Assembly: GCA_001804805.1 (NCBI GenBank)
Contig: MHBH01000090.1
Location: 1 to 47,753, forward strand
Source of the DNA: Lentisphaerae bacterium GWF2_49_21
GTDB lineage: Bacteria > Verrucomicrobiota > Lentisphaeria > Victivallales > GWF2-50-93
Length of the DNA: 47,753 nucleotides
Direction: 5' to 3'
The notes under the pieces are model-generated. The model worked only from the letters and a program-made list of their open reading frames with translations, was not told where the DNA came from and did not search any database. Each line of letters starts with the position of its first letter. Position 1 is the first letter of the stretch. Positions 4,615 to 25,394 of this stretch are shown one piece after another. Position numbers and translations under genes: made by a program.

Positions 4615-5433
4615 GTGGATATGCTTAAAATCGCAAAACCAGCAACATCTGTTTTACGTTTCACCCTGATTGAGCTCATCGCCTCAATGGGGGTCTTCGC
4701 CGTTCTTATGCTTATATTAATGACATTCTTTGATTCCGCGCAGAGGACTTGGACGGAATCTTATAACAGAAGCCTGGCCTATGAGAACGCAAGGATCGCC
4801 TTCGACCTGATAGAAAGGGACTTGCAGTGCATCTATTACCAGCAGGAAAACGTGCCTTTCTGGCATAAGGCGGCCACTGCTGCTGCCTGGACTGCCTACA
4901 GGAACCAGATGCTCGCATTCGTCTCTCAAACTCCGGTACCTCCTAACAGCTACTGCGAGTCCAAGCTATGTGAAATCAAATATCAGCTCTATTACGCCTC
5001 GGACCACAATGATGCCAATGATGGCTGGCTACTGAGAAGTGCAACAGGGGACAAGAGTGATGCCAATATTGACAATTCAAAGTGGAACTTCAACCAGAAT
5101 TTCACAGTCGGGCTGTCTGATGCACTAAACGCCTTTACTGGAAACACGGATTCCAGCGATGATTTCGACAAGATAATCCCATATGTCACAGATCTCTCTT
5201 TCACATGCTACAAGCTCAACGGTTCTGAAATAACTCCTGACTCCTCCGGAACCGCCACCACCGAATTCCCATATTCCATACGGGTGGATATAACTCTCAT
5301 GGACAGGAACTCCTTTGCAAAATGGCAGAACCTCGACAGAGGAGGAACGGCGAACGCAGCACAGTTCAAGAACGACCGTTCCAGGAAGTTTTCCAAAACC
5401 TTTCTCATAGGGGAGAGAGGGCAGTATGAATAA
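4615..5433 (+). CDS. GspJ/PilW-like minor pseudopilin
   Basis: A 272-residue protein with a prepilin leader ending in Arg just before FTLIELIASMGVFAVLMLI, then DSAQRTWTESYNRSLAYENA and FDLIERDLQ. The ARIAFDLIERDL region is characteristic of GspJ/PilW, where the helix is followed by a beta-rich globular domain. The globular part contains several Asp/Asn/Ser stretches (residues 125-180). The start may be GTG 4615 or ATG 4621; AGGTGG lies between them, so neither is ideally spaced. The stop overlaps the next gene by 8 bases, showing tight coupling with the GspK-like protein, as expected for tip-complex partners. Confidence 0.78.
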   Translation: MDMLKIAKPATSVLRFTLIELIASMGVFAVLMLILMTFFDSAQRTWTESYNRSLAYENARIAFDLIERDLQCIYYQQENVPFWHKAATAAAWTAYRNQMLAFVSQTPVPPNSYCESKLCEIKYQLYYASDHNDANDGWLLRSATGDKSDANIDNSKWNFNQNFTVGLSDALNAFTGNTDSSDDFDKIIPYVTDLSFTCYKLNGSEITPDSSGTATTEFPYSIRVDITLMDRNSFAKWQNLDRGGTANAAQFKNDRSRKFSKTFLIGERGQYE

Positions 5434-8152
5434 AAATATTAAAATCCATGATTTTATATTATTTTTGAGAAGGCGCGAGGAGGGAATGGCACTGATAATG
5501 ACTGTTGCCATGCTTTTCATGCTTCTCCTCATGGCTATAGCATTTGCATCGACTGCCAGGATGTGGAAGCAGGCTGCCGGAAACAGCAATGACCTTGCTG
5601 TTACAAGGCTTTTTGCCGAATCCGCTATCCAACGGGCGATTGGCGCACTCAGGTTCTACAGCTCAATCTCCGGAAACCAATATGCCGATGTCATAAGTCA
5701 TGACGAGGTCGATTCAATTACTGCCAACAGGAAAAACTTCGATACTTTGTACAGGATTGCAACTGTTTCAAATGATGTCCAGTATGACTGGGTATCCCCC
5801 TATGATCCTGATGCAGTCGATGCTGTCCACTGGCAGTATGTGTATAACGGCCTTCCCGGTCCTTCTGATGCAGGATATGATGCTAAAAATCCAAAGAAAA
5901 TCATTGGAAGAATTGCCTACGTGACAGTTGCCGTTGGAGGGAAACTAGATCCTGCCGCATGTGTGGACCATAACTCAACCGTCGGCAGCGCGGTGAATGA
6001 AAACGGAGCCAGCGAGGAAAGAAATGGGATATATGTAAAAGAAATCAACATACAGGATCTGGATCCGGCAAACGCAACCACATTTCTGCCGGTGGCAACT
6101 ATCAGCAATTTCAGCTCGGCAAATGCTTCGCCGGCAGGGAGACTTGCAGACGGTGAAAGATGGATCGACTGGGATAAGCTTTTTTCCCCGTCCAAACTCA
6201 ATATTACAGACAGCATCCAAAAAGATGCATTCAGAACCTGGTTCACTATCGACAATCCAGCGGATCCCGAGGCGTTCTGGGTAGATACCGACAATGACGG
6301 TCTTCAGGATTCCGGGGAACTTTTCCACAGGTTCAATCTGGCAAGGACAGATTGGAATGCAATGGCTGTCGGGAATATAATAGCTAGTCCGACAACGTAC
6401 AGCAATGCGGCTTCAACATACGACGGCAATGGTATTAAATGGCTCAATAACTGGACGGATGCCGGTACTTACTCTACGGTCACCGCCAGGAAAAACCAAA
6501 TTGCCTCGAATATCAAGGATTACAGCGATTCTGACGACGACGTGACAACCGACAGCACCACGGCACCTACCTACACAGGAAATGAGAAGACCCCCTATAT
6601 AAATGAACTTGCCCTGGAAGTCCAATGCACGACAACAATGATAAATATTGAAGGTCCTGAAAAGGAAGCTCACTTGGATTTCTACATCAGGTGCGGAGGG
6701 GAGATCATAAACATGTATGGGGAGAATTTCTCAGCGGCGACCACCCTTCGTATGATCGGAACGATAGATTTTGACTATCATGCACAGGATCCTCCGGATG
6801 TCCAGCATTATTCTGGGACATACGACAGGACATTTGATCTCACGGCAATTGGAAGTTCCTCCTACAAGTTTACCTGGGATGTTCAACCCTTTCTGGTTAC
6901 AAAGACCATTATCTGTCTTCCTCCTCATAAGGTCTGGGTTGATAATTTGAAAGTCGGAGTGAATACGTCCATTCTCACTTATAACGGCAAATTTGCAGAC
7001 TGTGCAAAACCCGATGCCGCAGGAGAATTCAGTAATACATTCCTCCATCTTGTGGAAAGGGACAACCATGGAATTGACACCACTTACTTCGAATACCAGG
7101 TAGATGACCCGAGGCAGAATCTCAATTCCGGAGACTGGCCACAGGCGACATGTCCGGTACAGCAGGATCCTGCCATCAGTCCAGTATATGTCTATACCGG
7201 AACAATCGATGCCATAAATAGTGGAGTAACCTGCACAACAAGCGGAGACGCGGAGACCGGGTCTACTCCCCCGACCATTTCAACGGCCTTTATAAGGAAT
7301 GCCCCTATGAAATCCCCTTGGGAGCTCGGATGCATACATCGAGGAGGAAAATGGGAGACAATAAACCTTCTGACATATAATGAAACTGATGGACATTACG
7401 GTATTACTCCAACGGCCGGTGGTGGGACATTTGCTTCAGGGGACGCCAATATTCTGGATCAGGTCAAGATGACAGGCAATACGGAAACATACGGACTTGT
7501 AAGCATCAATGCATCAACAGACAGCGTCCTAAAAGCATTGATTGCCAAGATAAGGGCGGGCGTGCCTTGGAAGAATAATGGTTCGGATGGTACGTCCGGA
7601 ACTGCTGACGACAATTCACCCGGCAGCAGGAACAATGGTACCGAGCTTACCTACAATACCAACGTGACAAATATAGCTTCAGCTATTTCCGGATCAGCGT
7701 ACCGCCAGTTTAAGACAAGGGGACAGATAGTGAAAGTCTCCAAGCTCAGCGATGGAACCGAGGCGACTCAGACTAAGAATGCGACCAAGGAGGAGATCAT
7801 CGGCAAGTTCATCAATCTCACAAAGGCGACTTCCATTGATGATACCATTGTCATAATCGCCCTTGCCCAGGCGATCAAGGATGTCGGGGACGGCAAAACG
7901 ATAAGCAAGGATCTTGATGCGAACGGGACTATCGGGAGTGCAGACGAGGCCACTGCCACTGTCAAGTACGATATCAATGGGGATGGAGATATCACTGACA
8001 CCATTTCCGAAACTTTTAGCAATTGCCAGTATGGTACATACAATCAGTATGCCGATGAGATACTTGCGGAGCAGAAAGTGCTTGCTGTTGTATCCAGGAA
8101 TCCGGTCAGCGGAAAATGGAAAATCATAAAATTCATGTATCTTGAGGACTGA
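5426..8152 (+). CDS. Giant GspK/PilX-like pseudopilin with Ca-binding-like motifs
   Basis: A 908-residue protein, nearly three times the length of ordinary GspK. Residues 16-42 (RREEG then MALIMTVAMLFMLLLM) match the GspK leader: Gly at -1 and no Glu at +5, as in classical GspK. The following FAESAIQRAIGALR segment also resembles GspK/PilX. The rest is a large extracytoplasmic region with many Asn, Thr and Asp residues. Two sites look like Ca-binding loops: DTDNDGLQDSGE (287-298), and a pair, DLDANGTIGSADE (829-841) and DINGDGDITDT (849-859), spaced like EF-hand or dockerin repeats. GGGAG and GAGGG lie just upstream of the ATG. It probably sits at the pseudopilus tip with the two preceding gene products (inference). 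Confidence 0.75.
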   Translation: MNKNIKIHDFILFLRRREEGMALIMTVAMLFMLLLMAIAFASTARMWKQAAGNSNDLAVTRLFAESAIQRAIGALRFYSSISGNQYADVISHDEVDSITANRKNFDTLYRIATVSNDVQYDWVSPYDPDAVDAVHWQYVYNGLPGPSDAGYDAKNPKKIIGRIAYVTVAVGGKLDPAACVDHNSTVGSAVNENGASEERNGIYVKEINIQDLDPANATTFLPVATISNFSSANASPAGRLADGERWIDWDKLFSPSKLNITDSIQKDAFRTWFTIDNPADPEAFWVDTDNDGLQDSGELFHRFNLARTDWNAMAVGNIIASPTTYSNAASTYDGNGIKWLNNWTDAGTYSTVTARKNQIASNIKDYSDSDDDVTTDSTTAPTYTGNEKTPYINELALEVQCTTTMINIEGPEKEAHLDFYIRCGGEIINMYGENFSAATTLRMIGTIDFDYHAQDPPDVQHYSGTYDRTFDLTAIGSSSYKFTWDVQPFLVTKTIICLPPHKVWVDNLKVGVNTSILTYNGKFADCAKPDAAGEFSNTFLHLVERDNHGIDTTYFEYQVDDPRQNLNSGDWPQATCPVQQDPAISPVYVYTGTIDAINSGVTCTTSGDAETGSTPPTISTAFIRNAPMKSPWELGCIHRGGKWETINLLTYNETDGHYGITPTAGGGTFASGDANILDQVKMTGNTETYGLVSINASTDSVLKALIAKIRAGVPWKNNGSDGTSGTADDNSPGSRNNGTELTYNTNVTNIASAISGSAYRQFKTRGQIVKVSKLSDGTEATQTKNATKEEIIGKFINLTKATSIDDTIVIIALAQAIKDVGDGKTISKDLDANGTIGSADEATATVKYDINGDGDITDTISETFSNCQYGTYNQYADEILAEQKVLAVVSRNPVSGKWKIIKFMYLED

Positions 8153-8634: not shown

Positions 8635-9735
8635 TCATCTATTGGAAGACAGATATTCTCTGATTGCCGCTGCAAGATAATTTCCGAATATCTTAGCCGT
8701 TTCCTGGTTTACTTCCTGTCCCCTGGCCTCGGAGTAGGGGAGTTCCAGTGTCATTGCGGCCTTGGATCCCTGTTCATATGCCCAGTTTGAACTTGTCTTC
8801 AGCCCCGGAGGATTTCCGATGTTCCAATCCTTGCCAAATGGAAGATTGTCCTCAATGAAATATGGAAGAGGCCCCTTGTTGACTTCCATCAGGGCTTTGC
8901 CCAATTCCAGCTGTTCCTTCCAGTTGTCCGCGTGCCTTGATCCGGGAATGTAGATGGAATTGTTCCCCTTGCCCCTTATCCACGGGCAGTGGATGTCGAG
9001 GAAAAGGAAAGTTTTCCCCTTGATCCATTCCGGGACAAAATCCATTATGGCCTTGGTTTCATTGTATACGGCATCTGGAATATAATCCCTGTTATGGTCG
9101 TGTGGACGCCTGTTCTTGCCCTGGTCCCCGTCTTCAACACCGTCCTTGTCGACAAAGGGTATTATCATGATCCGGGCATTCTTAAGGAACCAGTCCGATT
9201 CCAGGATTGATTCGATGGCGCCTTCCACCGCATAATTGGCCATCATCTCGCAGCAATGGTGGCGTGCCGTTATCAGAATGCGGAACTCGCAGTCCGGCCC
9301 GCCAATCATTAGCCTTTCAACATCCCTTCCCTTTTTTGATTTGCATAATCTGTCTATTTTCAGATTTGGATTATTCCTGTATTTTTCCAGGAATTTCTCA
9401 AAATTACGCTCCGAATAAGGCATCCCCATGCTGAATCTGACATCATTTGCGGTTTTTGGGAACTGAAACTCAAATGATGATGGACCGAGGTTTTCAGGGA
9501 GAAGCCAGTTCCATGTCCATCCGTCGTCGAGGCTGACGGCTGCGCCATGATCTGTCAGGAGGTTTTTTCCTGTGAGATTGAATTTGAGTTTTTCCCCACC
9601 GGCATCCTTTATCCTGAAACACCAGTAGAACCAGTCGCCCTCGGTGTCCCGGAGATCCTGCCGTATATAGATATCATTACCGTCAATTTTCTCAACGATG
9701 ATGTTTCCTGTCGGGAAATCGGAATCTATTTTCAT
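8635..9735 (-). CDS. M14-family zinc carboxypeptidase
   Basis: A 366-residue enzyme with an N-terminal beta-sandwich-like region (1-105) and an M14 catalytic domain. Zinc ligands are H160 and E163 (ARHHCCE, the HxxE motif) and H249 (FLDIHCP). Substrate-anchoring residues appear in DKDGVEDGDQGKNRR and HNRDY (R209/R210, N215, R216). The general base is E331 (TLELPYS). The N-terminal domain followed by this catalytic layout resembles cytosolic carboxypeptidases of the M14D/CCP type. There is no signal peptide, so it is likely cytoplasmic, trimming C-terminal residues from peptides or proteins. The substrate is unknown. The ribosome site before the ATG is weak. Confidence 0.88.
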   Translation of the reverse strand: MKIDSDFPTGNIIVEKIDGNDIYIRQDLRDTEGDWFYWCFRIKDAGGEKLKFNLTGKNLLTDHGAAVSLDDGWTWNWLLPENLGPSSFEFQFPKTANDVRFSMGMPYSERNFEKFLEKYRNNPNLKIDRLCKSKKGRDVERLMIGGPDCEFRILITARHHCCEMMANYAVEGAIESILESDWFLKNARIMIIPFVDKDGVEDGDQGKNRRPHDHNRDYIPDAVYNETKAIMDFVPEWIKGKTFLFLDIHCPWIRGKGNNSIYIPGSRHADNWKEQLELGKALMEVNKGPLPYFIEDNLPFGKDWNIGNPPGLKTSSNWAYEQGSKAAMTLELPYSEARGQEVNQETAKIFGNYLAAAIREYLSSNR

Positions 9736-9894: not shown

Positions 9895-11607
9895 ATGAAA
9901 TATGCTATTTTATCTGATATCCATGCGAATCTGCATGCATGGAATGCCGTCAAGGACGACATGGAACTTGAAGGTGTCGAAGCAGTGGTCTGCCTTGGCG
10001 ACATCATCGGCTACGGACCCAGGCCCGTCGAGACCCTTGATTCCGTCTGCTCCAGCTCCAACTATATTGTCCTCGGAAACCATGAAGCCGTGATTGAGGG
10101 TAGCTTCGACCGTTCACAGTTCAATGATGAAGCCTGGAAGATGATCGATTGGACAGGAAATCAGCTGAGTCCGGATGACGGAAAATTCTTCGAGCAGCTT
10201 CCTCTTGTGATAGAAATGGATTCAGGGACATCCAAGATCCTCTTCGTGCACGGTACTTCGTTCCAGCCCGAATCCTTCAGCTACATAATTGAGACTGAAA
10301 GTGCAATGGAGGCCTGGAACGCCTGCGATGCGGACATTATTTTCGCCGGACATACCCATGAAACCGCCATTTTCATGCTTAAGGAAGGACATGTTTCAAA
10401 GAGGAAAGTCGCAGATTTTTCAATAAAGCCCGGCAGAAGATACATTGTGAACGTCGGCAGCGTTGGTATGCCAAGGGAAACTGATTTCAGGGCGGGTTAC
10501 TGTATCTTCGACACGGATTCAGGTCAAATATCCTTTAAGAAGGTGTCATACGACTTTGAAGCGTTCAGGAAGGATGTCCTGGATATCATCGGTGAGTCTG
10601 AGCAGTCAAGACATGTTCTCAGCTGTTTCAAGGGATCCCAGCATAAGCCGATCAAGGAACAACTCGACTTCGTTCCATCCACTGTAAGCCAGATACTGTC
10701 AAGGCAGATGGTGTTCAGGGAGAAAATGTCGGTAAGGGCGGATGGAATGCCTCCTCCAAGGCAGTTCCGCCTGAACAGGGCCGCAATCGGAACTGCCAAG
10801 GAAGTCAAATCGAAATCTAGCAGGAAGCATCCTGGAATAAACAAAAAGCTCTGGTTTTCCATCTGCGGATTTTTCCTGATGATCGCGATAGCCGCGACAC
10901 TTGTCGCCATATTTATTCCTCCTCCTAAGGCTATACCGATTGAGACTGCCGGTAAAGAGGAACCGGCTGCTGTTGGCGCCGCGACCGCAGAGAACAAAAC
11001 GGAAGTTTCTGACAGGAAGACCGAACCTGCACCGACCCCGGAAGTCAAACCTGTGGAGACAAAAGGTATTTCACTGCCCAAGCGGAAGGAAATCATCCCG
11101 GTGGCCCCGAGCACAGTGGGAGTCCGCCTTGAAACGAATTTCGGAAACGGTTCAAAGTATATTAAAGTTTCCGGACAGGACAATTCATCGCTGCCTGAAG
11201 GCTGGCGCGAGTCTTCCGCCTGGGGGGATCCGATGTGCAGCTATTCATTCCAGCCGGAAGTGGATGGAGGCTTCTTGAAATGCGATGGTGCGGCGAAGGG
11301 CAGGATGCTTATTTATCATGAGTTCAACGGGCTGGCGCCCGGAAAGACATTCAAGATCACCCTGAAGGTGAAAGGTACGGCCAAATCAGAAGTCTATGTT
11401 GCATTCGGTGCTCTGGAAAAGCCTTGGAACGTATACGACAATGCAGCCCTCCGCCTCCCTGGAGATTGGAAGGATGTCACAACGATGCTCACCTGCGGAC
11501 AGGTTCCTGCGAATACTCCATCAGGTTTTATGATATATGCTCGCAGTCCGGGCGCCTTTGGAATCATGTCGGTAAAAGTCGAGGAAATCAGCTTTCTTAT
11601 GAGATAA
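9895..11607 (+). CDS. Metallophosphoesterase fused to TM helix and carbohydrate-binding-like domain
   Basis: A 570-residue protein in three parts. Residues 1-240 are a calcineurin-like phosphoesterase of the YfcE/diadenosine-tetraphosphatase-like group with all metal motifs: D8 and H10 (SDIH), GDIIGYG with D36, GNHE (61-64), H119 (VHG) and GHTH (152-155). Residues 320-341 are one hydrophobic membrane helix preceded by a Lys/Arg-rich stretch, so the enzyme should face the cytoplasm. A Pro/Glu/Lys linker (342-405) leads to a beta-rich domain (about 410-570) resembling CBM4/9-like sandwiches and the C-terminal modules of the next gene. The layout suggests a transmembrane device in which an outside ligand affects a cytoplasmic phosphodiesterase; this is inference. 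The substrate is unknown. Confidence 0.8.
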   Translation: MKYAILSDIHANLHAWNAVKDDMELEGVEAVVCLGDIIGYGPRPVETLDSVCSSSNYIVLGNHEAVIEGSFDRSQFNDEAWKMIDWTGNQLSPDDGKFFEQLPLVIEMDSGTSKILFVHGTSFQPESFSYIIETESAMEAWNACDADIIFAGHTHETAIFMLKEGHVSKRKVADFSIKPGRRYIVNVGSVGMPRETDFRAGYCIFDTDSGQISFKKVSYDFEAFRKDVLDIIGESEQSRHVLSCFKGSQHKPIKEQLDFVPSTVSQILSRQMVFREKMSVRADGMPPPRQFRLNRAAIGTAKEVKSKSSRKHPGINKKLWFSICGFFLMIAIAATLVAIFIPPPKAIPIETAGKEEPAAVGAATAENKTEVSDRKTEPAPTPEVKPVETKGISLPKRKEIIPVAPSTVGVRLETNFGNGSKYIKVSGQDNSSLPEGWRESSAWGDPMCSYSFQPEVDGGFLKCDGAAKGRMLIYHEFNGLAPGKTFKITLKVKGTAKSEVYVAFGALEKPWNVYDNAALRLPGDWKDVTTMLTCGQVPANTPSGFMIYARSPGAFGIMSVKVEEISFLMR

Positions 11608-11682: not shown

Positions 11683-13500
11683 ATGAAAATTGGCAGAATG
11701 AGAGAGTTGGTGCGCACTATTTCAAGAGGAACAGTACTAACGGCAGTCCTGGGCCTTTTGCATTCGGCCCATGCCGCCGATGAAGTGAAGGTGCCTTCAG
11801 ACAAAAGTAAATTTCATATAATCGTGCTTATGGGGCAGTCGAACATGGCCGGATCAGGACATCCAGTTCCGCCTGAGTACATCAAGGCGGATCCAAATGT
11901 GATTTTACTCGGAAATGACATGAAATGGACCAGTGCGAAAATCAACTTTGGAGCTGGGTTCGGGCCGGGGCAGGCTTTTGCCCGTCATTATGCTGAACTT
12001 CATCCAGGAGTCACTGTCGGCCTGATACAAGGAGCCCGCGGAGGCAGAAGCCTGAAGGAACTTTCAAAGGGAGGCAAGGACCGTGATGGCGCTCCCAACT
12101 ATGACAATGTCATGGCGAAGATAAAGGAGGCGATGAAGGTCGGGATACTGAAGGGCGTACTCTGGCACCAAGGAGAAAGCGACTGCGGGGACAAGGCCTA
12201 CGTTGAAAAGCTCAAAGTCCTTGTGACCGATTTACGGACCGACACCGGTATTCAGGATCTTCCTTTCATTGCAGGTGAACTTGGCCGTTATGCGACATGG
12301 ACCTCAAACTTCAATACCAATATCATACCTAAGGCGAACACTGAAATCCAGTATTGCTCCGTAGCAAGTTCAGAAGGTCTCCTGGACCTCGGGGACAAAG
12401 TTCATTTCTCCGGATTCTCCTGCGAGGCCCTCGGGAGCAGATATCTGATGGAATACCTGAAAATCAAGGAACCCGAGCTCGCCACAAAATTCAAACCGGC
12501 CCTTGATGATATAACAAAGAAGATGGCAGCGAAAGATGCTGAATGGATAACTGTAGTAAATCCCTCGATGTCCGATGGCGAAACGAGACCTGTCGGCTGG
12601 GACGGGAAATGGACTTCAAAGGGGAGTTTGAATGCCATACGCGATGACAAAGATTTCGCATCCGCCCCGGCTTCGCTTAGAATCGAATCGGCAGGAGGTC
12701 CGGTACTTGGTTCTGTTACGACTCCTATCAAGGAAGTCTCCGGCAAGAATATCAAGGTGACCTGCAAGATGAAAAATGCGGGATTCGCAAAATGCTGTCT
12801 GGTAATAACCGGTCTTGACGGCAGCTACAAGCAGGCGTTGAACAAGGAACTTATTGATGCGAAGGATGCTAAGGAATGGACAATCCTTTCCGCTGAGTTT
12901 GTCGTTCCCTCGAATGCAGTCAATGATCGTCTTGCCATACTTGTAGAAGGAGAGGGGAAGGCATGGCTCGACGATATTTCCATAGAAAAGTCAACTCCTC
13001 CTCCCGAAGCGGCTTCACCCGATAAACCAAATATCGCTGGAGGAACCAATATTGCCTTGAATAGTTCAATGTCAGAAGGAGATGACAAGCCGACGAACTG
13101 GACGTCTGTCTGGACATCCAGCGGGAAACTTAAGGGCAGTAAGGACACACAGACCTTCAAATCCGGACCCGCCTCCCTCAAGATCGAATCCGATGGAGGA
13201 CCTGTGAAGGGAAGCATCAGCCAGAAACTTGAAGGTGCTGCAGGAATGAAATTGAAGGTCAAGGGCTGGGCGAAATGCCAGGGTCCGAAGACCTGCTCTG
13301 TAGGAATTGGAACCTTTGACGCTTCCTGGAAGATGATTAAGTGGATACATGTATTTGCTAAACCGGGTGATTTCGACTGGACCCAGTTCGAGCAGGATGT
13401 TGAAATCCCCGCAGAGGCTGTAAATGTCAACCTTGGGCTTGGGATAGACGGAGAAGGAGCCGAATGGTTCGATGATGTGGAAGTCATCGTTGTCAAATAA
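11683..13500 (+). CDS. Secreted sialate-O-acetylesterase/CE6-like esterase with two binding modules
   Basis: A 605-residue exported enzyme. Residues 1-32 are a signal peptide (HSAHA then ADE). Residues 44-275 are an SGNH esterase of the SASA/DUF303 family: nucleophile S53 in GQSNMAG, oxyanion region QGARGG, WHQGESD (161-167), and the D238-x-x-H241 pair in DKVHFS. Such enzymes deacetylate sugars such as acetylated xylan or sialic acids. Two homologous beta-sandwich-like modules follow (about 292-433 and 455-604), each starting N-x-SMS-(D/E)G, with PASLRIES/PASLKIES and ending with an acidic (A)WLDD or EWFDD motif. They probably bind carbohydrate. GGGGAGAC precedes the ATG. It follows the phosphoesterase, whose outer domain resembles these modules. 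Confidence 0.85.
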   Translation: MKIGRMRELVRTISRGTVLTAVLGLLHSAHAADEVKVPSDKSKFHIIVLMGQSNMAGSGHPVPPEYIKADPNVILLGNDMKWTSAKINFGAGFGPGQAFARHYAELHPGVTVGLIQGARGGRSLKELSKGGKDRDGAPNYDNVMAKIKEAMKVGILKGVLWHQGESDCGDKAYVEKLKVLVTDLRTDTGIQDLPFIAGELGRYATWTSNFNTNIIPKANTEIQYCSVASSEGLLDLGDKVHFSGFSCEALGSRYLMEYLKIKEPELATKFKPALDDITKKMAAKDAEWITVVNPSMSDGETRPVGWDGKWTSKGSLNAIRDDKDFASAPASLRIESAGGPVLGSVTTPIKEVSGKNIKVTCKMKNAGFAKCCLVITGLDGSYKQALNKELIDAKDAKEWTILSAEFVVPSNAVNDRLAILVEGEGKAWLDDISIEKSTPPPEAASPDKPNIAGGTNIALNSSMSEGDDKPTNWTSVWTSSGKLKGSKDTQTFKSGPASLKIESDGGPVKGSISQKLEGAAGMKLKVKGWAKCQGPKTCSVGIGTFDASWKMIKWIHVFAKPGDFDWTQFEQDVEIPAEAVNVNLGLGIDGEGAEWFDDVEVIVVK

Positions 13501-14395: not shown

Positions 14396-14767
14396 TCACT
14401 TGGCTTTATGATCGTCTCCGGCCTTGCCGCTTTCATCCTGTGCTTTTGTTACAACTACCACTTCACCTTCGCAGAATATCCTTGAAATCTGCTTGCCCTC
14501 CTCGCTGGAAGCATATCCGGTTTTCTTGTCCTCAAGAAAAACCGTCATTTTCCTGCAGGTTATCGCCGTCTCCCCGTCATCGAACTTCACGTTCCCTGTG
14601 AAAACAGCGAAGTTCTTGGCGATATCTATGTTGATCATATCGGCTTTTATCACCGTGAGGATTTTCTTTATGCTCTTTATCTTAGGCTGTGCAAGCGGTA
14701 TATCCTGTGCAGATGCAACACTGCAGAACAACAGGGCAGATATAGTGATTTTATGAAAATTAAGCAT
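14396..14767 (-). CDS. LptA/OstA-like periplasmic protein
   Basis: A 123-residue exported protein. Residues 1-20 are a signal peptide (ISALLFCSVASAQ). Residues 40-108 fit the OstA-N/LptA beta-jellyroll: INIDIAKNFAVFTGNVKFDDGETAITCRKM has the typical pattern of a short strand, F-x-GNV, then D...I-C-x-x-M, and ends ISRIFCEGEVVVV. LptA shuttles lipopolysaccharide across the periplasm; short paralogues of unknown role are common. The start is ATG 14767, inside the end of nrdG, an 8-base overlap. It is therefore transcribed with the anaerobic RNR genes, which is an unusual partnership. The C terminus is hydrophilic (GKAGDDHKAK). Confidence 0.72.
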   Translation of the reverse strand: MLNFHKITISALLFCSVASAQDIPLAQPKIKSIKKILTVIKADMINIDIAKNFAVFTGNVKFDDGETAITCRKMTVFLEDKKTGYASSEEGKQISRIFCEGEVVVVTKAQDESGKAGDDHKAK

Positions 14768-15482
14768 CAAAAATGAATGAGCCTTTTAGCCCTCTTACAC
14801 GTGTATGATTGCCCATCCCCCGTGCAAGCTCGATGAGCTCTGCATCGGAATAGGTAGGCTCTGATGAAAGATTGTCATCTATGACTTCAGCGGCATGGAA
14901 CTGCTGGAGGGTCCACGCAGTGACTCCCAGGCTGTTCAGTTCTTCACGCATTCTTCCAAGGATTTCCGGACTGTGGAATTTCTTGTGTACGGTGGTCCTG
15001 ACATCGAGGATTATCTTGTTCTCTATGGCGTATAATATTGTCCTTTGGACCCTGTCTGCAATATCTTCAAGGCATGACTTTGTCAAATTCATGTAGTCTG
15101 CGGCAATAGACTTGTAGTCAAGACCCAGTGCGTCGAGGCATTTATTCTTATGAATACTAATAATAACTTCAGGATTGCTGCCATTGGTATCAAGTTTGAT
15201 AAAGTATCCAAGCGACTTGATTCTTTCAGTGAAGCCTGTAAGTGCGCTGTACATTGATGGCTCGCCACCGCTTATTACGACACCTTCTATCTTGCCGCGC
15301 CGTTTTTCAAGGAAATTGAAGATGAAGCTGTCTGAAAGACGCGGCTGGCTTTCCGGATCAATTACAAGATGTGGATTATGGCAGTATGGGCATCTGAAAT
15401 TACAGCCTCCCACATAAAGGATGCAGGTTATCTTCCCTGGGAAGTCTATGAGGGAGAATTTAGTAAGTCCGCGAATATCCAT
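14760..15482 (-). CDS. nrdG: Anaerobic RNR activating enzyme (radical SAM, NrdG2-type)
   Basis: A 240-residue radical SAM protein. The [4Fe-4S] motif is C27, C31 and C34 (CNFRCPYC), preceded by LIDFPGKITCILYVGG, a sequence typical of the NrdG2 subgroup. VISGGEP is the SAM-binding glycine-rich motif. It installs the glycyl radical on the class III ribonucleotide reductase under anaerobic conditions. It is the third gene of the nrd operon, after nrdD and the separate glycyl-radical polypeptide. AGGAG lies 7 bases before the ATG. The C-terminal half is longer than in minimal NrdG proteins (about 155 residues). Confidence 0.92.
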   Translation of the reverse strand: MDIRGLTKFSLIDFPGKITCILYVGGCNFRCPYCHNPHLVIDPESQPRLSDSFIFNFLEKRRGKIEGVVISGGEPSMYSALTGFTERIKSLGYFIKLDTNGSNPEVIISIHKNKCLDALGLDYKSIAADYMNLTKSCLEDIADRVQRTILYAIENKIILDVRTTVHKKFHSPEILGRMREELNSLGVTAWTLQQFHAAEVIDDNLSSEPTYSDAELIELARGMGNHTRVRGLKGSFIFDA

Positions 15483-23777: not shown

Positions 23778-25394
23778 TCAGCGCTCGGGCAAAGGAAGCG
23801 GCGTCATTGTGAAAACATGGGGGGAGATCAGCTTCTTCTGCATCTCTTCTTCAATGGATTTGGATGTGATCAGGATTTTCCTGGGTGTATTGTCGGTAAC
23901 AGCCTTTACCGGTGCAACTGGCGGAGGCGCCTCTGTAATGCCTATTTTCATCAGATGGTATACCATCAGGATGCTGGCCGACAAAATCACGCATGCCGCG
24001 ATAACAGTGAGCATTATCCGCCGGACCTTGATCTGCTGGAGCAGGTTTACCTGTTTCCCCTTTTCAAGCTGATGTATTACCTCCTCGGGAACTGTATATT
24101 CAAGCACCTTGCCTTTGACCTTGTTGAGAAGTACCAGGACTTGGTTTTCATCAACATGGTACAGATAGCACAGCGTCCTTACATATGCGTTAACATAAAC
24201 TGGGGCGGGCAGGTTTTGGAAGTCATCCCTTTCCAGGGCCTCAATGAAATTCTTCTTTATCTTCGTGGTTATTGAAACCTGGTCGATGCTCAATCCGGAT
24301 CTTACACGTCCTTCCTGCAGGATCTGCCCGGAAGTCGCATTGTCCGATGAAAACTTTTCGATGACATTGTATTTTTTCGGAGGTTTTGGAGTTTCCTTCT
24401 TTTCCTCATGCTTTACGGGAGCCGGTTTAACAGGCGCTGCTTTTGCAGGAGGAGCGGCAGATTCCTTCACCGCGTTTTGCTCGGGTTGTGGCGGTTTAGG
24501 GGCAGGAGGGTTCTCTTTCTTGTGCTGATGGCGAGGCTGATGGGCAGGTTCAGCTTTTGATTCAACTTTCGGTTCAACCTTGCGTTCGGGTTTCTTCTCC
24601 TCCTTTTTCTCTTCCTTCACTTTCGCCTGGAGCTTCACTGGTTCGGATTTTTTCTCCTGGACAGGAGCAGGTATGGATGCAACTGGAGGAGTAACTTCTG
24701 GAATGGGGATTGGAGCTGCTGCAGACGGAGCTGCCGGAGCAGGAGTTGGAACAACAGGAGGAGTTGAAACTGGAACAGGTTCGGCTTTGACAGGCGCCGG
24801 AGTTTTGATCTCCTGCTTGACAGGAGCCTCAACCTGTTTTGGTTGTTCTGGAGTTTTCACAGGCACCTTGGGTTCCGCCTTTTGAACGGCAGGCGCTGGT
24901 TCAGATTTGACGATTGCCGGTGTTTTCACTTCCTGTTTGACAAGAGCCTCAGCCTGTTTCGGCTGTTCCGGAGTTTTCACAGGTACCTTAGGGTTCGCTG
25001 CTTGAACGGCAGGCGCAGAACTTGAAGGTTTAGTTTCCTTCACTTCCTGAGTCTGGGTCTGCACCGTGGCCTGTTCCTGTATTGACTTCTTATATGGTGG
25101 AGGAACATGATGTACAGGCTTCCTTGGAGCAGATGGAGATGATATGTCATCAAAATTTCCAATATTCGGATCTATGGGCTTTGGAGCTTCCTGTATGGGA
25201 TTGGCGGTCATCTGCACGACCTGGACCGGATCTTTCTTCGGAGGTTCGGGAACAGCAGCCTTTACTTCCGGTTTGGGATCCGGATCTTTTTTCTCCACTG
25301 GCTCCTTCTTCTCCTCTCCTGCGAAATCAAGGGGCAACGAGCCTTCATTGGACTTTGAAGACTGGTTGAAAAGATCGTCTTTATGCTTGGCCAT
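23778..25394 (-). CDS. RodZ-like HTH membrane protein with long disordered N-terminal region
   Basis: A 538-residue protein. Residues 1-340 are low-complexity, rich in Pro, Lys, Glu and Ala, probably disordered; they include a near-duplicate block (PKVPVKTPEQPKQ at two places about 40 residues apart). Residues 356-425 are a RodZ-type HTH (GRVRSGLSIDQVSITTKIKKNFIEALERDDFQNLP, typical HTH_25). Residues 456-482 are basic residues plus one membrane helix (KVRR then IMLTVIAACVILSAS), and a 55-residue outer tail. RodZ links MreB to the cell-shape complex; normally its HTH is at the N terminus, so here it is displaced by a long cytoplasmic arm. It is 95 bases upstream of aroQ in the same direction. 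The ribosome site is weak. Confidence 0.75.
   Translation of the reverse strand: MAKHKDDLFNQSSKSNEGSLPLDFAGEEKKEPVEKKDPDPKPEVKAAVPEPPKKDPVQVVQMTANPIQEAPKPIDPNIGNFDDISSPSAPRKPVHHVPPPYKKSIQEQATVQTQTQEVKETKPSSSAPAVQAANPKVPVKTPEQPKQAEALVKQEVKTPAIVKSEPAPAVQKAEPKVPVKTPEQPKQVEAPVKQEIKTPAPVKAEPVPVSTPPVVPTPAPAAPSAAAPIPIPEVTPPVASIPAPVQEKKSEPVKLQAKVKEEKKEEKKPERKVEPKVESKAEPAHQPRHQHKKENPPAPKPPQPEQNAVKESAAPPAKAAPVKPAPVKHEEKKETPKPPKKYNVIEKFSSDNATSGQILQEGRVRSGLSIDQVSITTKIKKNFIEALERDDFQNLPAPVYVNAYVRTLCYLYHVDENQVLVLLNKVKGKVLEYTVPEEVIHQLEKGKQVNLLQQIKVRRIMLTVIAACVILSASILMVYHLMKIGITEAPPPVAPVKAVTDNTPRKILITSKSIEEEMQKKLISPHVFTMTPLPLPER

Follow-up and report, generated by a model that had tools for sequence, protein, structure and literature searches.

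Second-messenger phosphodiesterases that are bound to the membrane and carry outer or membrane sensor domains are found among the EAL, HD-GYP and GdpP-type DHH enzymes. The idea of an outer input that regulates a cytoplasmic phosphodiesterase is common to these enzymes and to the protein described here, whereas the catalytic folds differ. We know of no EAL, HD-GYP or DHH system in which a YfcE-like metallophosphoesterase (MPE) is joined to an ectodomain resembling a carbohydrate-binding module (CBM). YfcE, MJ0936 and PdeM (PDB 3rqz, 3qfm) have the catalytic domain and its motif in common with the present protein, but they are soluble, single-domain enzymes with neither the membrane helix nor the outer jelly roll seen here. 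With the CBM4/CBM_4_9 modules (PDB 1gu3, 1gui) the outer domain shares the jelly-roll fold and a weak sequence match. CBMs are usually carried on secreted enzymes, whereas this module serves a membrane phosphoesterase as its ectodomain.

RsgI anti-sigma factors of Clostridium thermocellum comprise a cytoplasmic output, one helix and an exchangeable outer sensor, which can be a carbohydrate-binding module (PMC12203970). They signal via proteolysis, and their output is an anti-sigma domain (PMC12203970). The plan of cytoplasmic output, one helix and exchangeable outer module is matched by the family described here; the likeness is at most one of working, not of membership. The N-terminal anti-sigma domain of RsgI was absent from the present protein, whose N-terminal part was matched only by MPE models among those of Pfam and NCBIfam.

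In the gut and the sea, Verrucomicrobiota, among them the Lentisphaeria and Kiritimatiellae, play an important part in breaking down complex glycans. The gene under study belongs to Lentisphaerae bacterium GWF2_49_21 and was analysed within a stretch of 47,753 nucleotides (GCA_001804805.1, MHBH01000090.1), referred to as the window. It occupies positions 9895..11607 (+ strand) as an open reading frame of 570 aa with full-length relatives, and encodes a membrane MPE with an outer jelly roll of the kind designated type B. Searches of Pfam, NCBIfam, the PDB and the listed titles of the open-access literature found the MPE-helix-CBM-like ectodomain layout under no family name, in no NCBIfam model or solved structure and in no paper, in agreement with the initial annotation, which knew of no named family so arranged.

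Architecture and topology

The window protein consists of an MPE domain, a helix, a linker and a jelly roll, and this architecture is well supported. An intact MPE, one helix, a Pro-rich linker and a beta-sandwich had been proposed in the initial annotation, and this main layout was borne out by Pfam, PDB, hydropathy, AF2 and Foldseek. The full-length AF2 model was poor (pLDDT 41, from an alignment of two sequences).

The class-III MPE domain (residues 1-228; 9895..10578, + strand) was delimited from Pfam, PDB 3rqz and its metal residues. Residues 1-209 matched Metallophos_2 (PF12850) with E 5.9e-19 and 69 bits against a cut-off of 27, and the reading frame also matched Metallophos (PF00149; E 2.4e-15, 57.9 bits against a cut-off of 21.5). 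The YfcE models of NCBIfam scored below their curated cut-offs (TIGR00040, 40.9 against 56.25 bits; PRK09453, 46.5 against 117). The best solved relative was PDB 3rqz (E 3.5e-28, residues 1-221). The class III phosphodiesterase motif is DxH-GD-GNH[DE]-H-GHxH (PMC4320098). All of its elements (D-x-H, GD, GNH[DE], H and GHxH) were present in the window MPE, the variable element reading GNHE in the window type and GNHD in type A. The eight metal and catalytic residues D8, H10, D36, N62, H63, H119, H153 and H155 were all kept, as the early reading of intact metal motifs had it, and the same eight were found in 50/50 aligned MPE sequences. We infer both the catalytic activity of the window MPE and its substrate.

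For comparison, a long form of the family was defined by a match of E <= 1e-66 within an open frame of 430 aa or more, length serving as a proxy and the helix being checked in 56 proteins; so defined, long forms occurred in 78 of 388 genomes drawn evenly from the phylum, understood as Verrucomicrobiota in the GTDB sense. In the window protein one hydrophobic segment was found, the transmembrane helix at residues 319-344 (10849..10926, + strand; KD hydropathy 2.8). An equivalent segment was present in 56/56 long forms measured, the window protein included, and started at residues 280-324 (median 286). L083 was the only one of these with further hydrophobic windows over threshold. Counts of K+R in the 15 flanking residues were 6 before and 2 after the window helix, and across the 56 long forms the count before the helix was larger in 47, equal in 8 and smaller in 1. 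No N-terminal signal was seen, the MPE beginning at residue 1. Together, the single helix, the K+R bias and the missing signal indicate that long forms are most probably N-in/C-out, with a cytoplasmic MPE and an extracytoplasmic jelly roll. The initial annotation had named a topology with both domains on one side as evidence against it; in silico, the helix and charge bias place them on opposite sides.

An LptA/LptD_N-like gene lies at 14396-14770 of the window (E 3e-7). Its presence points to a diderm envelope, most likely LPS-bearing, and hence to a periplasmic outer domain. Of the polysaccharide contact "outside" envisaged at the start, the extracytoplasmic placement was thus retained, the compartment was revised to the periplasm, and the presumed ligand was reworded as glycan.

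Between the MPE and the helix lies a juxtamembrane segment (residues 229-318; 10579..10848, + strand), predicted to be cytoplasmic, with a basic end before the helix. It carries the motif [RKQ][DE]x[hydrophobic]xF, which reads KEQLDF in the window protein (residues 254-259). Counted over region 226-285, motifs of this class were found in 41/58 long forms against 0/20 stand-alone MPEs, whose smaller length leaves fewer positions for a match. F259 was invariant among 13 aligned long forms. On the other side of the helix, the Pro-rich flexible linker (residues 345-~410; 10927..11124, + strand) was recognised from its sequence and from AF2 pLDDT values mostly below 50. Fully extended, its 66 residues could span approximately 20 nm, which would be enough for peptidoglycan.

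The outer jelly roll

The outer domain (residues 411-570; 11125..11604, + strand), placed in the periplasm by the topology above, was assigned as CBM4-like from Pfam, AF2, Foldseek, a sequence profile and a copy in a GDSL hydrolase. Residues 468-535 matched CBM_4_9 (PF02018) with E 1.3e-4 and 22.8 bits, below the Pfam cut-off of 25.9. The AF2 model of residues 407-570, built with one relative as alignment, was a jelly roll with pTM 0.70 and a mean pLDDT of only 66. With that model as query, the top Foldseek match was the CBM4 1gu3 (E 3.5e-6, TM 0.56/0.63), followed by a porphyran-binding CBM and, lower, by CBM27, CBM16, CBM15 and CBM22. Eph receptor ligand-binding domains and other protein-binding jelly rolls were returned at similar E-values, and toxin domains were also among the matches, so the fold alone is no proof of sugar binding. 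A four-sequence profile of the domain gave the CBM4 1gui as its best PDB match (E 7e-4). A domain search and fold prediction of residues 410-570 had been called for in the initial annotation, and the beta-sandwich that it described was supported (CBM_4_9, AF2 jelly roll, Foldseek matches to CBM4/16/22/27).

The nearest homologue of the domain lies at the N-terminal end of a GDSL hydrolase of 400 aa encoded by the same genome (contig C59, 38% identity), whose first residues resemble a signal peptide; a GDSL hydrolase with a homologous N-terminal domain was also found in G001. The outer-domain profile further reached the CBM_4_9 domain of a GH39-like protein on contig C57 (E 1.1e-6). That domain scored above the cut-off itself (E 1.9e-8, 35.2 bits), and the N-terminus of the GH39-like protein resembles that of the C59 hydrolase. 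As modelled, the window domain appears CBM4-like by fold and weakly so by sequence, and it may bind glycan. The beta-sandwich had also been likened to the modules of the adjacent esterase. This did not hold beyond a general resemblance, the closest relative being the C59 hydrolase domain, and homology to the esterase modules was not supported by sequence (BLASTP E 0.03 in one comparison, no profile match).

Family distribution and history

Full-length type-B relatives were found in G001 (60% identity) and G003 (59%), the latter being the protein of the Lentisphaerae MAG contig JANYBI010000474. Type B was present in 3/4 genus members, the window genome included. The window genome also holds a type-A paralogue of 510 aa on contig C54. 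Type A occurred in three families of the order (f1, f5 and f6), in many families of the class and throughout the phylum. Absence of the fusion from close relatives had been named as a result that would tell against the proposal; the survey found it in genus relatives and phylum-wide.

The outer domain of type A, which is the most frequent one in the family, gave no significant match to any sugar-binding family. When type-A and type-B outer domains were aligned with hhalign, an in-register alignment of 110 columns was obtained with E 0.13. Over 41 type-A-like proteins, mean identity was 53% in the MPE, 27% in the juxtamembrane segment and 24% in the C-terminal 150 residues. Longer members (640-1199 aa) bear other outer parts: L089 and L092 carry F5/8 type C domains that pass the Pfam cut-off, a weak Laminin_G_3 match was found in L093, and the outer part of L091 is only a Lys/Pro-rich tail.

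Four membrane MPE paralogues in G138 (contigs C556, C366, C216 and C57, corresponding to L085, L087, L091 and L092) differ mainly after the helix. Their post-helix parts comprise a weak malectin-like match, the Lys/Pro-rich tail and F5/8-C; one is cut at a contig end. The four lend themselves to a comparison of outer modules within one genome. Two tandem long MPE genes were seen at L129:3857-6997 (G380), and a similar tandem is suggested by open frames in G437 and G289.

In a tree built from the MPE domains, a 100/100 branch divided 58 long proteins and 2 short ones from 13 stand-alone MPEs. The same split (SH-aLRT 100) was obtained when a second stand-alone MPE subfamily was added. As judged from this tree, long forms are one clade apart from the stand-alone MPEs. 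The two short members, L017 and L019, lie within the clade and have neither helix nor outer domain. The simplest history would be one ancient fusion, after which the membrane part was lost at least twice; both short members are long-branched and their placement is uncertain. The window protein and its relatives L008 and L009 formed a divergent lineage of their own (100/100). A recent origin of the window protein by duplication of the C54 type-A paralogue was rejected, the protein branching separately, as an old lineage.

A TM-less member of the long clade (L098:1936-3342, G018; 245 aa) directly adjoins the gene of a LysM lipoprotein with a coiled-coil (LysM E 2.4e-15). It is possible that this lipoprotein replaces the lost outer part. 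A split of the gene into an MPE and a separate membrane partner was considered and rejected, the adjoining gene encoding a LysM lipoprotein and not the missing ectodomain.

Proposed role and gene neighbourhood

Type-A genes of the genus sit in a polysaccharide-type cluster of GT4 glycosyltransferases and asparagine-synthase-like amidotransferases. On C54 (L038:1-14001, G000) the type-A paralogue is surrounded by a carbamoyltransferase, three asparagine-synthase-like proteins and two GT4 genes, the first of which has a start that overlaps the stop codon of the MPE gene. GT4 also adjoins the type-A gene in G004 and G005 and is near it in G162. In the clusters of the genus the XrtA/PEP-CTERM models scored below their cut-offs and generic asparagine synthase above. 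Beyond these genomes the neighbours vary and include rnf genes (in some distant genomes), RecC and GAPDH. Clustering of the neighbourhoods of family loci returned no general or regulatory partner gene.

The best single reading is that the window protein is a one-protein receptor phosphodiesterase that senses periplasmic glycan, with a probability of roughly 0.45; signalling, ligand and substrate are putative. The transmembrane sensor suggested in the initial annotation, with contact outside changing phosphodiesterase activity inside, is thus plausible. The class-III MPE would act in the cytoplasm and the one helix would cross the inner membrane. On its flexible linker, the CBM4-like jelly roll would sample periplasmic glycan, either that of the cell wall or oligosaccharide in transit. 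Binding of the ligand would alter the state of the juxtamembrane segment and, through this presumptive coupling across the membrane, change how actively the MPE cleaves a soluble phosphodiester or nucleotide. The combination of a conserved enzyme, a conserved single helix and a fast-changing, exchangeable outer module gives the family the look of a receptor; conservation inside with exchange outside is what one would expect if a single output domain served many inputs. The kinship of the window outer domain with secreted GDSL and GH39-like proteins suggests glycan as the input, and RsgI, which senses glycan with a similar plan, provides a precedent. Against sensing we count the type-A outer domain with its lack of a sugar-family match, the lack of a partner gene, and the occurrence of jelly rolls as protein-binding folds; the tail-only L091 and the helix loss in L017 and L019 further imply that the enzyme can do without the input.

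The main rival, to which we give somewhat less credence, is a housekeeping enzyme: an always-active MPE tethered at the inner membrane near exopolysaccharide or wall machinery. Such an enzyme would cleave a membrane-delivered or nucleotide-linked by-product, and its jelly roll or charged tail would anchor it to wall glycan or an envelope protein. The GT4 overlap and the adjoining or nearby GT4 genes of type A suit this role, as do L091, with nothing outside but its tail, and the TM-less clade members, one of them beside a LysM lipoprotein gene. Beyond the family, however, the gene neighbourhood is not conserved, and the outer part has been swapped for quite different modules, which a simple anchor would not need; moreover, the type-B outer domain is common to secreted glycan-active enzymes and not to biosynthetic ones. 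An unlikely alternative retains a receptor, or an assembly factor, and has the outer jelly roll bind a protein or peptide (such as an envelope partner or another copy of the protein), the likeness to CBMs being one of fold only. The Eph receptor and other protein-binding matches in Foldseek, the unmatched type-A outer domain and the below-cut-off CBM_4_9 score of the window protein speak for it, whereas the nearest sequence relatives in secreted GDSL and GH39-like proteins and the CBM4 as best PDB match of the profile speak against. The genome was assembled as a draft of 91 contigs, in which two neighbouring genes might be joined by an assembly or reading error. That explanation is exceedingly improbable and was refuted by independent assemblies: the same full-length layout recurs at 56-60% identity in G001 and G003/JANYBI010000474, within a phylum-wide family.

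The receptor reading can be extended, more tentatively than for the window protein itself, to a phylum-wide class of Verrucomicrobiota receptor phosphodiesterases. In these, a YfcE-like MPE-helix core would be combined with exchangeable jelly-roll, F5/8 or other periplasmic modules, and glycan would set the level of a soluble nucleotide second messenger. Such a class would provide a means of sensing glycan other than the two-component, sigma/anti-sigma and EAL/HD-GYP systems. Should the coupling exist, the window protein would be a testable sensor encoded by a single gene and would point to an unknown phosphodiester signal in the phylum. If it is a tether only, the family would still represent a membrane enzyme of wide occurrence, with a likely role in the metabolism of the envelope or of exopolysaccharide.

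In the window, the type-B gene is followed by a gene for a secreted SASA-family esterase with C-terminal modules (11683..13500, + strand; Pfam SASA E 2.5e-44) and preceded by one for an M14-like carboxypeptidase (8635..9735, - strand; Peptidase_M14 E 1.7e-6). Both were assigned from Pfam and synteny, and the pair adjoins the type-B MPE gene in 2/3 loci. A run of pseudopilin-like genes adjoins it in 3/3 loci. Within this run, positions 5426-8152 of the window encode a 908-aa protein with a pilin-like N-terminus, which is GspK-like by eye and gave no Pfam match. Elsewhere in the window (23778-25394), a 538-aa protein carries a RodZ-type HTH_25 domain at residues 359-417, a domain that is N-terminal in RodZ.
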